From: Bradyrhizobium arachidis
GTDB lineage: Bacteria; Pseudomonadota; Alphaproteobacteria; Rhizobiales; Xanthobacteraceae
Assembly (NCBI RefSeq): GCF_024758505.1
Contig: NZ_CP077970.1
Coordinates: 62,001-126,000 of the forward strand
Direction: 5' to 3'
Length of the DNA: 64,000 nucleotides
Part shown: positions 1,343-6,940 of the stretch, in pieces
Layout: every line of letters begins with the position of its first letter
How positions within the stretch are numbered: position 1 is the stretch's first letter
Notes under the pieces: generated by a model
The model's input: only the letters and a program-made list of their open reading frames with translations
Databases searched by the model: none
Told to the model about the DNA's origin: nothing
Position numbers and translations under genes: made by a program

Positions 1343-2113
1343 ATGGACGTGTTGACTGGCAAGGCGGCGGAGACGACCAGCCGGCCCTACAACAATCTGC
1401 TGCGGCGATTGAACGAGGCGGACTACGCGCTGATCGCACCGCATGTCGCGCTCGAGACCGCAGATGCCAACGATCTGCTCTACAATCCCGGCGACGACGT
1501 CCAGGTCGTGCATTTTCCGTGCGGGCCCGCGCTCGCAACCTTCCTCGTTGCCAACGAGGACGGGCGCGACGTCGAGACCATTCTCGTCGGCCGCGAGGGT
1601 GCGGTTGGCGGCATCGTCAGCGAGGGTTTTCTGCCGGCCTACACCCGCATCGTCGTAAAATTCGGCGGACCCTTTGCGCGCATTCACGTCGCCAAGCTGG
1701 AAGCGGCGAAGGCGAAATCGAAAATACTGAGCAACATTTTTGCACGCTATGCCGACTGCATGCTGGCGCAGATCTTTCAGTCGACCGCATGCAACGCCAT
1801 CCACTCGATCGAGCAGCGCACCGCCAAATGGATTTTGGCCGCGATGGAGCGGACCGATGGCAACGACAGCGTGCCGCTGACACACGAGCAGCTCGCGACC
1901 CTGCTTGGCGTCGGGCGCAGCTATGCCAGCCGGGTGATCCAGTCGTTCAAGGCCGACGGCGTGATCGAGACGCGGCGGGGATCGATCCTGGTCCGCAATC
2001 GCGACGGACTGCGTCTGCGCGCCTGCCTGTGCAACGACGCGGTAAAGGCCCATTTCGAGGACGTGCTGCGCGGCGTCTATCCGACGGAGGAGACGAACAA
2101 CAGCTCGGCGTGA
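1343..2113 (+). CDS. Crp/Fnr-family transcriptional regulator
   Basis: 256 residues from the ATG at 1343, which follows a purine-rich stretch. The N-terminal half is a cyclic-nucleotide-binding-like beta barrel (about residues 20-140), then a dimer helix, then a winged helix (about 170-235) whose recognition region contains LATLLGVGRSYASRVIQ. It lacks the N-terminal cysteine cluster of true FNR, and I do not see a clear cAMP-binding arginine-serine signature, so the effector is unknown. It belongs to the group of Crp-like regulators common in Bradyrhizobium. The upstream EcfG-type promoter suggests stress-induced expression. Confidence 0.88.
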   Translation: MDVLTGKAAETTSRPYNNLLRRLNEADYALIAPHVALETADANDLLYNPGDDVQVVHFPCGPALATFLVANEDGRDVETILVGREGAVGGIVSEGFLPAYTRIVVKFGGPFARIHVAKLEAAKAKSKILSNIFARYADCMLAQIFQSTACNAIHSIEQRTAKWILAAMERTDGNDSVPLTHEQLATLLGVGRSYASRVIQSFKADGVIETRRGSILVRNRDGLRLRACLCNDAVKAHFEDVLRGVYPTEETNNSSA

Positions 2114-2204: not shown

Positions 2205-2921
2205 ATGAGCGGGGCTGGGCTTCACATCGTCTTCGATATCGCGGCATGGCTCGCGGCGGGCGCCGCGGTGTACTGGCTGTCGCGCCGCGGGCTGAAATTC
2301 CCCTCGCAGTCGTTCGAGGTGCCCTACATCGCCGCCCTGGTGTTCGGCGCGGGCCTCGGCGCCTATCTGTTCGGATCGCTGAACCTGTGGCTATCGGGCC
2401 AGGCCGGCATCGCGCGCTCGGTCGAGGGCGCGCTTGCGGGTGGCATTGTCGGAATCGAACTCTACAAATGGTCCGCCGGCATTTCCCTGCGTACCGGTGC
2501 GCGGTTTGCGCTGCCGCTGGCGCTCGGCATCGCGATCGGACGGCTCGGCTGCTACTTCGCGGGTCTCGACGATTTTACCTACGGCACGCCGACGGCGCTG
2601 CCCTGGGGCCATGATTTCGGTGACGGAATAAGCCGTCATCCCGTGCAGCTTTATGAGAGCACCGCAATGGCGGCTTTCGCGGTCGCTTACGTGCTGGCGG
2701 TCTTGAACCGAAGCGACTTTATCGTCACTAATGGTTTCTACCTGGCGCTCGCCTATTACGGGTTGCAGCGGTTCTTGTGGGAATTCCTCAAGCCTTACGG
2801 CGCGCTGATCGGCCCCTTCACGCTGTTTCACCTGCTGTCGCTCTTCATCCTGCTCTACGCCGCCTTCATGCTGGCGACGGCATCAAAAGCGAGACCCTTA
2901 CATGAACGCGCCGCTGCGTAG
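2205..2921 (+). CDS. Prolipoprotein diacylglyceryl transferase (Lgt)-like membrane protein
   Basis: 238 residues with about seven hydrophobic segments. Lgt hallmarks are present: GRLGC at 112-116, RHPVQLYES at 144-152 (Lgt proteins have RHPxQLYE), and an RFLWEF stretch near 189-194 matching the conserved RFxxEFxR region. Lgt transfers a diacylglyceryl group from phosphatidylglycerol to lipoprotein cysteines at the inner membrane. This copy is shorter than typical Lgt and reads GRLGCYFAG where canonical Lgt has a GRxGNFxNxE-type sequence, so it is probably a paralogue with another acceptor. It overlaps the radical SAM gene by 20 bases, which argues for coupled translation and a shared lipid pathway. 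Confidence 0.8.
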   Translation: MSGAGLHIVFDIAAWLAAGAAVYWLSRRGLKFPSQSFEVPYIAALVFGAGLGAYLFGSLNLWLSGQAGIARSVEGALAGGIVGIELYKWSAGISLRTGARFALPLALGIAIGRLGCYFAGLDDFTYGTPTALPWGHDFGDGISRHPVQLYESTAMAAFAVAYVLAVLNRSDFIVTNGFYLALAYYGLQRFLWEFLKPYGALIGPFTLFHLLSLFILLYAAFMLATASKARPLHERAAA

Positions 2922-4347
2922 GTCCCGTCCCTATGTTTTCTGGGGTCAGACCCAATCGCTCTGCGAGACCTGCCTGAAGCTGGTGCCGGCCAAGATCCAG
3001 ATCGTCGGCAACGAGGTCTGGTACGAGAAGCGCTGCAAGGAGCACGGCGTGCAGTCGACGCTGATCTCGACCGATGCCGCCTATTGGCGCTTGTGCAAGG
3101 ATTTCATCAAGCCCGGCGACAGGCCGCTGCAATTCCAGCAACGCACCGAGTTCGGCTGTCCCTATGATTGCGGCCTATGCTCCGACCATGAGCAGCACTC
3201 CTGCCTGGCGCTGATCGAGATCACCGAGCACTGTAACCTCACCTGCCCGGTCTGCTTCGCGGAATCCTCGCCCGCGCGGACGCAGTTCACGCCGCTGCCC
3301 AAGATCGAGAAAATGCTCGATGCGCTGGTCGCAAGCGAGGGCGAACCGGACCTGGTGCAGATCTCCGGCGGCGAGCCGACGCTGCATCCGGACTTCTTCG
3401 AGATCCTGGACGCCGTGCGCGCTCGCCCGATCCGCCACGTCATGATCAACACCAACGGCCTGCGTATCGCCCGCGAAAAGGATTTCGTGGCGCGGCTCGC
3501 CGAGAACAGGCGTGGGCTCGAGGTCTACCTCCAGTTCGATTCGCTGGAGCGTGAGGCGCTGATCAATTTGCGCGGCGCGGATCTGCGCAAGATCCGCCAG
3601 CAGGCGCTGGAAAATCTCGAGCATTATGGCGTGTCGACGACCCTCGTTGCCACCATCAAACGCGGCGTCAACGACGGCGAGATCGGCGACATCGTTCGCC
3701 ACGCATTGACATGGAAATGCGTGCGCGGCGTCACCCTCCAGCCGGTGCAGGATGCCGGCCGCAACGAAGCCTTCAACAAGGAGACCGACCGCATCATGCT
3801 GTCGGAGATCCGCAAGCGCGTGATCGAGACCGGTGTGTTCGGCGACAAGGACATGATCCCGCTGCCCTGCAACCCCGAAAGCATTTCGATCGGTTACGGC
3901 CTGCGCAATGGCGACAAGGTTTTGCCGTTGACCTCGCTGATCCCGCAGGAGCAGCTTCTGGCCGTGATGCCAAACACCATCAGTCCGGAAAAATATCCGG
4001 TGCTGCGGGAAAAATTTGTTGATCTGTTTTCGCTGTCATCTGGGCCGCTGAACACCAGCGAGCGGGTCTGCGAATTGCTGTGCTGCCTGCCGAGCTTCCA
4101 GGTGCCCGAAGGCCTCAGTTACGAGAATGTCTTCCGCGTCACCATCGTGCAGTTTCTCGACCGCTTCAATTTCTGCGTCGGCAACGTCAAGCGGTCCTGC
4201 ATCCATTTCGTGACGGAGCAAGGAGCGATCATCCCGTTCGACACCTACAACCTGTTCTACCGCAACGGCGCCATCACCCGCATCCGCGCCGAGCTTGCCG
4301 GACAGACCTCTCGCGAGGCAAGGCAGAGCGAGGAGGCATCACAGTGA
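2902..4347 (+). CDS. Radical SAM protein of the tetraether lipid synthase (Tes/MJ0619, COG1964) type
   Basis: 481 residues. The radical SAM cluster motif is CNLTCPVC (C111, C115, C118), followed by GGEP at 156-159. A second CX3CX2C, CPYDCGLC (C86, C90, C93), with C101 just behind it, and an N-terminal CETC (C21, C24) with C45 and C65 resemble the extra Fe-S cluster and rubredoxin-like iron site of archaeal Tes. C-terminal cysteines (C390, C394, C395, C425, C433) and FDTYNLFYRN complete the family pattern. Tes joins lipid tails by carbon-carbon coupling; this bacterial homologue may modify a fatty acyl or other lipid chain, but its substrate is unknown. Overlaps genes on both sides. Confidence 0.85.
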   Translation: MNAPLRRSRPYVFWGQTQSLCETCLKLVPAKIQIVGNEVWYEKRCKEHGVQSTLISTDAAYWRLCKDFIKPGDRPLQFQQRTEFGCPYDCGLCSDHEQHSCLALIEITEHCNLTCPVCFAESSPARTQFTPLPKIEKMLDALVASEGEPDLVQISGGEPTLHPDFFEILDAVRARPIRHVMINTNGLRIAREKDFVARLAENRRGLEVYLQFDSLEREALINLRGADLRKIRQQALENLEHYGVSTTLVATIKRGVNDGEIGDIVRHALTWKCVRGVTLQPVQDAGRNEAFNKETDRIMLSEIRKRVIETGVFGDKDMIPLPCNPESISIGYGLRNGDKVLPLTSLIPQEQLLAVMPNTISPEKYPVLREKFVDLFSLSSGPLNTSERVCELLCCLPSFQVPEGLSYENVFRVTIVQFLDRFNFCVGNVKRSCIHFVTEQGAIIPFDTYNLFYRNGAITRIRAELAGQTSREARQSEEASQ

Positions 4348-4604
4348 GCGATACACCGCCGCCGGTCTTGCCACCCGTCCCAACGCCCGATCGGGCACGC
4401 AGCGGCTGCCTGACCGCGCTCATGGTGATTTTCGGGATCATCATGCTGCTGCCGGGCCTCTGCGCGCTGTTGTTCGGCGGCATGTCCGTGTTCGAGGGAG
4501 GACGGATCGATACCGACATCGCGCCGCTGGTGTTCCTGGGCCTGGTCGTGGGCGCTGTCGGAGTCGCTCTGATCTGGGCGGCCATCAGGGGACGGCGGAG
4601 CTAG
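4344..4604 (+). CDS. Small two-segment membrane protein, copy 1
   Basis: 86 residues from a GTG that overlaps the radical SAM stop codon (GTGA), with GAGGAGGC as ribosome binding site. It has a proline-rich cytosolic N-terminus and two hydrophobic segments, the first around LMVIFGIIMLLPGLCALLF and the second near the C-terminus. It is clearly paralogous to the next gene: both share TALM, PGLCAL and a basic C-terminus. No known family is recognised. Its place at the end of the Lgt-like/radical SAM operon suggests an accessory membrane subunit. Confidence 0.75.
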   Translation: MSDTPPPVLPPVPTPDRARSGCLTALMVIFGIIMLLPGLCALLFGGMSVFEGGRIDTDIAPLVFLGLVVGAVGVALIWAAIRGRRS

Positions 4605-4610
4605 GCAACG

Positions 4611-4871
4611 ATGAGCAGCACCGACAGTCCACCCCCTCCGGCGGGCCCACCGGCCAGGCGCAGCGGCTGGCGGACCGCGCTCATGATCGTGGTCGGCGTC
4701 ATCCTGTTGTTCCCGGGCCTCTGCGCGCTGGCTTTCGGGGCCGGAGGCGGCCGCGACCCCATGGTGATCATGATCGTCCTGGTCTGCCTGCTGGTGAGCG
4801 CCGGAGGAATCTGGCTGATCGCGGCGGCGATTGGCGGGCGGAACGCCAAACGACCCCCGGCCGGCCCCTAA
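4611..4871 (+). CDS. Small two-segment membrane protein, copy 2
   Basis: 86 residues, starting 6 bases after copy 1. Layout is the same: Pro-rich N-terminus, first hydrophobic segment with LLFPGLCALAFG, second segment ending in AAAIGGRN. The pair looks like a tandem duplication that has diverged, perhaps giving a heteromeric membrane partner for the operon. Function unknown. Confidence 0.75.
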   Translation: MSSTDSPPPPAGPPARRSGWRTALMIVVGVILLFPGLCALAFGAGGGRDPMVIMIVLVCLLVSAGGIWLIAAAIGGRNAKRPPAGP

Positions 4872-4922
4872 CCCCCGGAAATCCCCGGGCAAAATTCAGT
4901 CAACCAACCGGCAAAGAACACA

Positions 4923-4950
4923 TTGTTTTTTGACGGTTTTTGCATATATT
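4923..4950 (+). promoter_or_regulatory. Possible sigma-70 promoter for typA
   Basis: TTGTTT at 4923-4928 and TATATT at 4945-4950 are separated by 16 bases in an unusually AT-rich patch of an otherwise GC-rich region. If used, it gives a leader of about 155 bases before the typA ATG. Confidence 0.4.
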
Positions 4951-4972
4951 GCGCCGCAAACGCGCAAGGTGT

Positions 4973-5000
4973 GCCCGGTCGATCTGGCCGGGCTTCCTTT
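4973..5000 (+). terminator. Terminator-like hairpin in the typA leader region
   Basis: GCCCGGTC and GGCCGGGC form an 8-bp stem (one G-U pair) around GATCT, followed by TTCCTTTTT. It has the form of an intrinsic terminator. It may end the upstream operon, or act as an attenuator if the promoter at 4923-4950 is used. Confidence 0.5.
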
Positions 5001-5113
5001 TTGGGCGAAGCAGGCCCCGTTTTTCACGTTTTCAGCGTTGTCCGAGAAGAGGTCCCGGTCTGACCGGCGAGATCGCGCTTAACCCATTGTTCGAACGCAA
5101 AGAAGCTCTACCC

Positions 5114-6940
<1,827 letters not shown>

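Follow-up and report, generated by a model that had tools for sequence, protein, structure and literature searches.

Introduction

Lgt transfers a diacylglyceryl group from phosphatidylglycerol to a cysteine at the outer helix face (PMC4728403, PMC8689077). Tetraether lipid synthase (Tes, or GDGT-MAS; MJ0619, PDB 7TOL and 7TOM), a radical S-adenosylmethionine (SAM) enzyme of archaea, uses an iron-sulfur cluster to join lipid tails (PMC9433317). Relatives of both are encoded side by side in a four-gene cassette at positions 2205-4871 of the window, the 64,000-nucleotide stretch of Bradyrhizobium arachidis DNA analysed here (NZ_CP077970.1, 62,001 to 126,000; genome size 9.43 Mb). Two papers of 2022 noted Tes relatives in bacteria, then of no known function (PMC9433317, PMC8941075), and bacterial homologues have been counted in Black Sea genomes (PMC11868695). 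The same source describes Mss, which couples two fatty acids (PMC11868695). Mss and Ger are bacterial enzymes of membrane-spanning lipids, and Mss is likened to the cassette by its described reaction. The original prediction, made from the letters of the window, called the operon a possible undescribed lipid-modification system, and in the open-licence literature no description of a pairing of Lgt with a Tes-like radical SAM enzyme was found.

Three kinds of gene travel together in this module: an Lgt paralogue, a radical SAM enzyme with the Tes fold, and small transmembrane (TM) proteins with one conserved cysteine. The module is self-contained and widely distributed, occurring in at least four phyla. 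It is not peculiar to this alphaproteobacterium.

Organization of the cassette

The open reading frames (ORFs), coordinates and overlaps of the four-gene run at 2205-4871 agree with the first description, and that observation is confirmed as a whole. The genes are as follows.

2205-2921, forward strand: Lgt paralogue, 238 amino acids, proposed lipid transferase.
2902-4347, forward strand: Tes-like radical SAM enzyme, 481 amino acids, proposed to act on lipid tails.
4344-4604, forward strand: small two-TM protein 1, 86 amino acids, read from a GTG codon and proposed as an acceptor; its conserved Cys40 (4461-4463) has an aligned counterpart in 69 of 73 members of its class from other loci.
4611-4871, forward strand: small two-TM protein 2, 86 amino acids, proposed acceptor, of the same family as protein 1; conserved Cys38 at 4722-4724.

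The Lgt-like and radical SAM genes overlap by 20 bp. The gene for small protein 1 overlaps the radical SAM gene by 4 bp, and that for small protein 2 follows after a gap of 6 bp.

The nearest named relatives of the cassette proteins come from Bradyrhizobium. In a sample comprising the window's own genome and 99 relatives, the radical SAM gene is found at 89% identity or more in 22 of 60 genomes of the genus, and at 58-63% identity in two other genomes of the order. The Lgt-like gene occurs in the same 24 genomes and adjoins the radical SAM gene in all of them. One further genome of the sample has an Lgt-like match of only 27%. In G043 the radical SAM relative, at 37%, is next to a methyltransferase gene, and the only Lgt is canonical.

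In five of five module-free complete genomes checked, 259-367 bp separate the end of the Crp-like gene (75-82% identical) from typA downstream of it, a spacing measured between match ends. Because all five present a clean empty site, the module is delimited as a 2.7-kb cassette without flanking genes, and the Crp-like gene and typA are ruled out as members. The Crp-type regulator of the window (1343-2113) has a HTH_Crp_2 match and no match to a Pfam cyclic-nucleotide domain; it precedes typA in Bradyrhizobium genomes that carry the module and in others that lack it. That the Lgt-like, radical SAM and small TM genes form a functional unit is in our judgement practically certain.

Distribution of the pairing

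A search of GTDB genomes with an eight-member alignment gave at least 584 confirmed relatives of the radical SAM protein; the counts given here rest on the best 80, about 20 of them Bradyrhizobium loci. By NCBI phylum these belong to Pseudomonadota (51), Bacteroidota (10), Bacillota (8), Cyanobacteriota (5) and Melainabacteria (2), with one each from Acidobacteriota, Verrucomicrobiota, Planctomycetota and a lineage without phylum name. An Lgt-like ORF lies upstream of the radical SAM gene in 77 of these 80 loci from other genomes, so the pairing does recur elsewhere. The other three (L101, L105 and L143) have less than 330 bp of contig left on that side. Four loci have the Lgt-like ORF 0.8 to 3.2 kb upstream (L131, L136, L137 and L141), with unrelated-looking genes between in L131 and L137.

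The upstream stretch of L143 holds the end of a Sel1-like gene. A similar gene (L070:6835-7653), whose Sel1-repeat product begins like a lipoprotein, separates the Lgt-like gene from the radical SAM gene in G265, a genome of the window's own phylum. The L119 contig, labelled Planctomycetaceae, may be misbinned: its radical SAM gene nests in Sphingomonadaceae in a tree made by a quick method, with 19 near-duplicate or partial rows left out and with long outgroup branches.

Three further genome samples were drawn without regard to the pairing. Among 398 Pseudomonadota genomes, 12 match at E 1e-25, and all 12 have a clustered Lgt-like gene, with one intervening gene in G265. The Cylindrospermum-area sample gives nine matches in 194 genomes, eight of the core type; seven of these eight have a clustered Lgt-like gene, counting G531, where only an end of that gene precedes the contig stop, and G686, where a contig break divides the radical SAM gene in two. 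In the Flavobacterium area 18 of 198 genomes match, and the gene is clustered in 13 of the 14 of core type. Weaker matches in this last sample vary: in G815 and G850 (437-462 bits) the Lgt-like gene stands about 1 kb downstream, and after it comes a small TM protein with Cys; the Lgt-like neighbour of G790 (235 bits) is weak, and G760 has no such neighbour. In the divergent module of G850 (L188:3435-6941) a gene for an ICMT/PEMT-family methyltransferase (4784-5377) separates the radical SAM gene from the Lgt-like one, and the small TM protein ends in IIIFILIFGSCLSILFNPK.

Small membrane proteins and their conserved cysteine

The description of the two small proteins as duplicated two-segment membrane proteins holds: they share 48.5% identity over 68 amino acids, and they are the only matches to their family in the window genome at E 0.01. 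In other loci such proteins were sought by a crude rule (45-150 amino acids, at least two TM segments, Cys in one of them, pieces of Lgt and Tes set aside). A fitting ORF is present in 74 of 80 loci, against 4 of 80 in an antisense control window of similar size (about 3 kb) and 10 of 69 in a 1-kb control further downstream; a few of the ORFs so listed lie more than 2 kb upstream. By this rule 51 loci have one copy, 21 have two, two have three and six have none. Inspection by eye raises the number to four in L079 and makes such proteins visible in L088 and L137, which fail the rule; the ORFs picked in L138 and L122 lack the aligned Cys. In G505 a 67-codon ORF just upstream of the radical SAM gene (L185:7902-8105) encodes one TM segment and then, directly, a Cys.

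Three classes were distinguished by our own judgement. In class A, mostly from Pseudomonadota, the Cys lies mostly in the first TM segment (aligned in 69 of 73). In class B, from Bacteroidota, it lies in the last TM segment near the C-terminus (12 of 12). Class C, from Bacillota, Cyanobacteriota and Melainabacteria, has it in the third (13 of 14). It is the most conserved column of classes A and B bar the start Met. The residues that follow it number 30-98 in class A and 4-12 in all 25 Cys-bearing proteins of classes B and C. A charged stretch and then an uncharged run precede it, the run having a median length of 20 (range 10-36) in class A, 16 (14-20) in class B and 20 (2-21) in class C. In 88 of 94 proteins (64/69, 12/12 and 12/13 in classes A, B and C) the 12 residues before the run carry a higher net charge than the 25 that follow the Cys. 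By the positive-inside rule the Cys is thus predicted to lie in the outer half of an inside-to-outside helix. Gly is found at position -2 in 67 of 94 proteins and Leu at -1 in 38 of 94.

Charged stretch, hydrophobic run and Cys in a predicted inside-to-outside helix resemble a lipoprotein signal peptide. Unlike a lipobox cysteine, the residue stands inside a TM helix of a protein with two or three such segments and, in two classes, near the C-terminus. No member tested reaches a Pfam or NCBIfam cut-off. Weak matches to holin, NorM, a 'lipo-invert' tail and others all fall under cut-off and were not accepted; a literature search on 'lipo-invert' found nothing. Given the conserved Cys, the small membrane proteins, for which the original prediction proposed no role, are in our view the likeliest acceptors, and the balance tips slightly towards their receiving a lipid.

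The Lgt paralogue

The Lgt-like protein matches PF01790 with 64.5 bits (cut-off 24.9) and scores 23 bits against TIGR00544, where the equivalog cut-off of 118.9 is not reached. A canonical lgt elsewhere in the genome scores 242.5 bits, compared with 63.6 for the cassette copy, so the label of paralogue is correct. An additional, higher-scoring Lgt gene is present in 12 of 12 other genomes checked, and the cassette gene is ruled out as the ordinary lgt of the cell. The Lgt fold of the model is supported by VIA-align, with PDB 5AZB as the Lgt structure; Foldseek alone did not find Lgt. One motif marks the paralogues.

2541-2552, forward strand: R113-L-G-C116, altered Lgt signature (canonical GRLGN; Arg143 kept, Asn146 replaced by Cys), from alignment with the genome's own canonical Lgt (L001); Arg in 77 of 77 and Cys in 77 of 77 paralogues.

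In Lgt, Arg143 and Arg239 bind and activate the phospholipid. Equivalent positions were identified from motifs and their spacing relative to the canonical Lgt of this genome. The counterparts of Arg143, Arg239 and Tyr235 (R113, R189 and Y185) are present in 77 of 77 paralogues, and that of Glu243 is Glu or Asp. The paralogue thus keeps the fold and these residues, and differs from Lgt in having no His103 and a Cys for Asn146. The presumed housekeeping Lgt of G728 (L197, Bacteroidota) has YGGL and GRIGCH, compared with HGGL and GRLGN, so that the catalytic residues which textbooks give for Lgt may not hold for every Lgt.

The radical SAM enzyme

The radical SAM protein matches PF04055 (76 bits, cut-off 29.5) and PF23545 (62.3 bits, cut-off 27). 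Structure comparison finds the full-length Tes fold in it, as had been anticipated, with 28-29% identity to Tes in structure alignments. Its motifs are listed below with their conservation among the 80 relatives.

2962-3045, forward strand: rubredoxin-like iron motif C21-X2-C24-X20-C45-X2-H48; 78 of 80, the other two gapped there.
3157-3198, forward strand: N-terminal auxiliary cluster motif C86, C90, C93 with H96/H99 (CPYDCGLC); all rows with letters, 78 or 79 of 80.
3232-3255, forward strand: radical SAM CX3CX2C motif C111, C115, C118 (CNLTCPVC); 79 of 80, one gapped.
3868-4242, forward strand: C-terminal signature of the subfamily, from the relatives' alignment: C323 (3868-3870), C394-C395 (4081-4086), S432-C433 (4195-4200) and D447 (4240-4242).

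The first three motifs are shared with Tes, whose mononuclear iron site is C9-X2-C12-X20-C33-X2-H36 (PMC9433317). Of the three cysteine groups first proposed, CPYDCGLC and CNLTCPVC stand as given; the group described by 'C45/C65' is amended, since C65 is not conserved and the fourth ligand is H48.

The C-terminal part departs from Tes. C323, C394, C395 and C433 are each present in 80 of 80 relatives; position 432 is Ser in 79 and Thr in one, and position 447 is Asp in 60 and Glu in 20. Positions 432, 433 and 447 all correspond to Cys in Tes, whose RCC and PFC align with S-C433 and Asp/Glu447. The Cys of Tes HQHC, placed by hand at 327, is matched by Cys in 15 relatives and by other residues in 65. 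The Met439 column of Tes holds Val (39), Met (22) or others (19), and that of Tyr459 holds Phe (52), Ile (27) or Met (1). That the C-terminal cysteines of Tes are ligands is what we infer; the portion of PMC9433317 available names Met439 and Tyr459 only. The enzyme differs further from archaeal Tes in being bacterial and nearly always clustered with an Lgt paralogue.

Curated cut-offs rule the gene out as a member of Tes or TrsS. It scores 263.8 bits against the Tes model NF045702 (cut-off 450), and its best NCBIfam match, TrsS (NF045646), gives 302.5 bits (cut-off 490); L153 and L150 also remain under the latter with 316.6 and 339.4. TrsS is listed in a 2026 selenoprotein table (PMC13188914). 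TrsS-like relatives at L025, L193 and L194 likewise match TrsS best (325-339 bits, under cut-off), so that NCBIfam scoring does not separate the cassette subfamily from these methyltransferase-paired relatives. Unlike the cassette enzyme they keep Cys at 432, 433 and 447, and they adjoin a methyltransferase gene, whereas the cassette has Lgt-like and small TM genes as neighbours and no methyltransferase. They come from Bradyrhizobium G043 (L025:8583-10954) and from plasmids of a Mycolicibacterium and a haloarchaeon. The G043 methyltransferase scores 142.8 against the DVU_1556 methyltransferase cut-off of 155.

Proposed mechanism and alternatives

Lgt chemistry and Tes chemistry beside a small one-Cys protein suggest lipidation of the Cys together with a radical step on the chains. 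The favoured reading is a protein-lipidation or lipid-remodelling module, held with a little less than even confidence. The Lgt paralogue would transfer a diacylglyceryl or similar lipid group to the conserved Cys of the small proteins. As this Cys lies within the helix, unlike that of a lipobox, the small protein would stay embedded. Less surely, the radical SAM enzyme may abstract hydrogen from alkyl chains, whether those of the lipid donor or those already attached to the protein; a new bond might then form as by Tes, for example a tail-to-tail link within one diacylglyceryl group. By analogy with Tes, a radical step on lipid chains appears about evenly balanced. Transfer is the likelier half, since the altered C-terminal cysteine set makes the radical step less certain. 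The original interpretation of the operon, as one that builds or attaches an unusual lipid, is therefore partly supported: the single gene unit, both folds, the pairing in many bacteria and the lack of a description in the literature searched agree with it, and the C-terminal cysteines do not.

Several observations weigh against protein lipidation or lipid remodelling. Cysteine positions in the C-terminal part differ from those of Tes. The equivalent of His103 (HGGL) is absent (His in 0 of 77 paralogues), and Cys replaces Asn146 of GRLGN in all 77; in E. coli Lgt, His103 mutants failed complementation (PMC4728403) and Asn146Ala lost activity (PMC8689077). These absences argue against an unchanged Lgt reaction. 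Since the presumed housekeeping Lgt of G728 itself has Tyr and Cys there, such replacement is no proof of lost activity. The small proteins do not match the lipobox consensus [LV][ASTVI][GAS]C (PMC8689077), proteins 1 and 2 reading PGLC. G505 carries the radical SAM gene with no Lgt paralogue in its genome, and in G728 the paralogue is far from the radical SAM gene. No small TM ORF with Cys fits the rule in L108, L131, L141 and L143 (the last on a contig cut upstream), and none occurs within 1.5 kb in L155, L158, L159, L160 and L166. Tes, moreover, is a soluble enzyme. The Lgt active site faces the periplasm (PMC4728403), so that the order of steps is ambiguous.

The best-surviving alternative, near the original view, is a free-lipid pathway: the two enzymes would make an unusual membrane lipid, for instance with coupled tails, and the small proteins would be accessory subunits or docking factors. 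Tes does act on free lipids, with E. coli phospholipids in its crystal (PMC9433317), bacterial Tes homologues have been proposed for branched glycerol dialkyl glycerol tetraethers (PMC8941075), and some loci have no visible small protein. Tail coupling, however, needs no Lgt-type transferase, and one to three diverging copies with a top-conserved Cys fit substrates better than a subunit of fixed stoichiometry. We consider this pathway unlikely. Still less probable is a peptide-modifying module, in which the radical SAM enzyme would act on the small protein, forming for example a sactipeptide-like bond between the Cys sulfur and carbon, after which the Lgt paralogue would attach or position a lipid. 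Maturation of short lipopeptides, by cutting of the lipidated small protein at the Cys, fares worse again. The closeness of the Cys to the C-terminus (4-12 residues) in Bacteroidota, Bacillota and Cyanobacteriota and the methyltransferase gene of divergent locus L188 are in its favour, but 30-98 residues follow the Cys in class A, and the Bradyrhizobium cassette has no peptidase gene (other loci were not searched for peptidases). A chance gathering of unrelated genes has a negligible probability: each enzyme superfamily is known on its own, but the 77 of 80 loci that show the pairing, spread across four or more phyla, a Mantel r of 0.959 and the clean empty sites already contradict it.

Protein lipidation by the module can be put in a more specific and more tentative form, which we would at present rather doubt than believe. 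On this reading bacteria of at least four phyla would have a second pathway of protein lipidation, in which the Lgt paralogue links a lipid by thioether to the intramembrane Cys of small hairpin proteins, and the Tes-like enzyme then couples or cyclises the tails via a rebuilt C-terminal cluster. The product would be a covalently locked lipid-protein anchor, for which we know of no precedent.

Significance

A large bacterial branch of Tes homologues is now tied to a lipid transferase and to a small one-Cys candidate substrate. What these homologues do can now be tested directly in genera that grow in culture, Bradyrhizobium, Sphingomonas, Paenibacillus and Cylindrospermum among them. If the Cys is lipidated, the Lgt fold would serve protein modification in a second way. 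If tails are coupled, the module would bear on bacterial sources of the unusual lipids that serve as geological markers. The cassette suggests an undescribed way of attaching or altering lipids.
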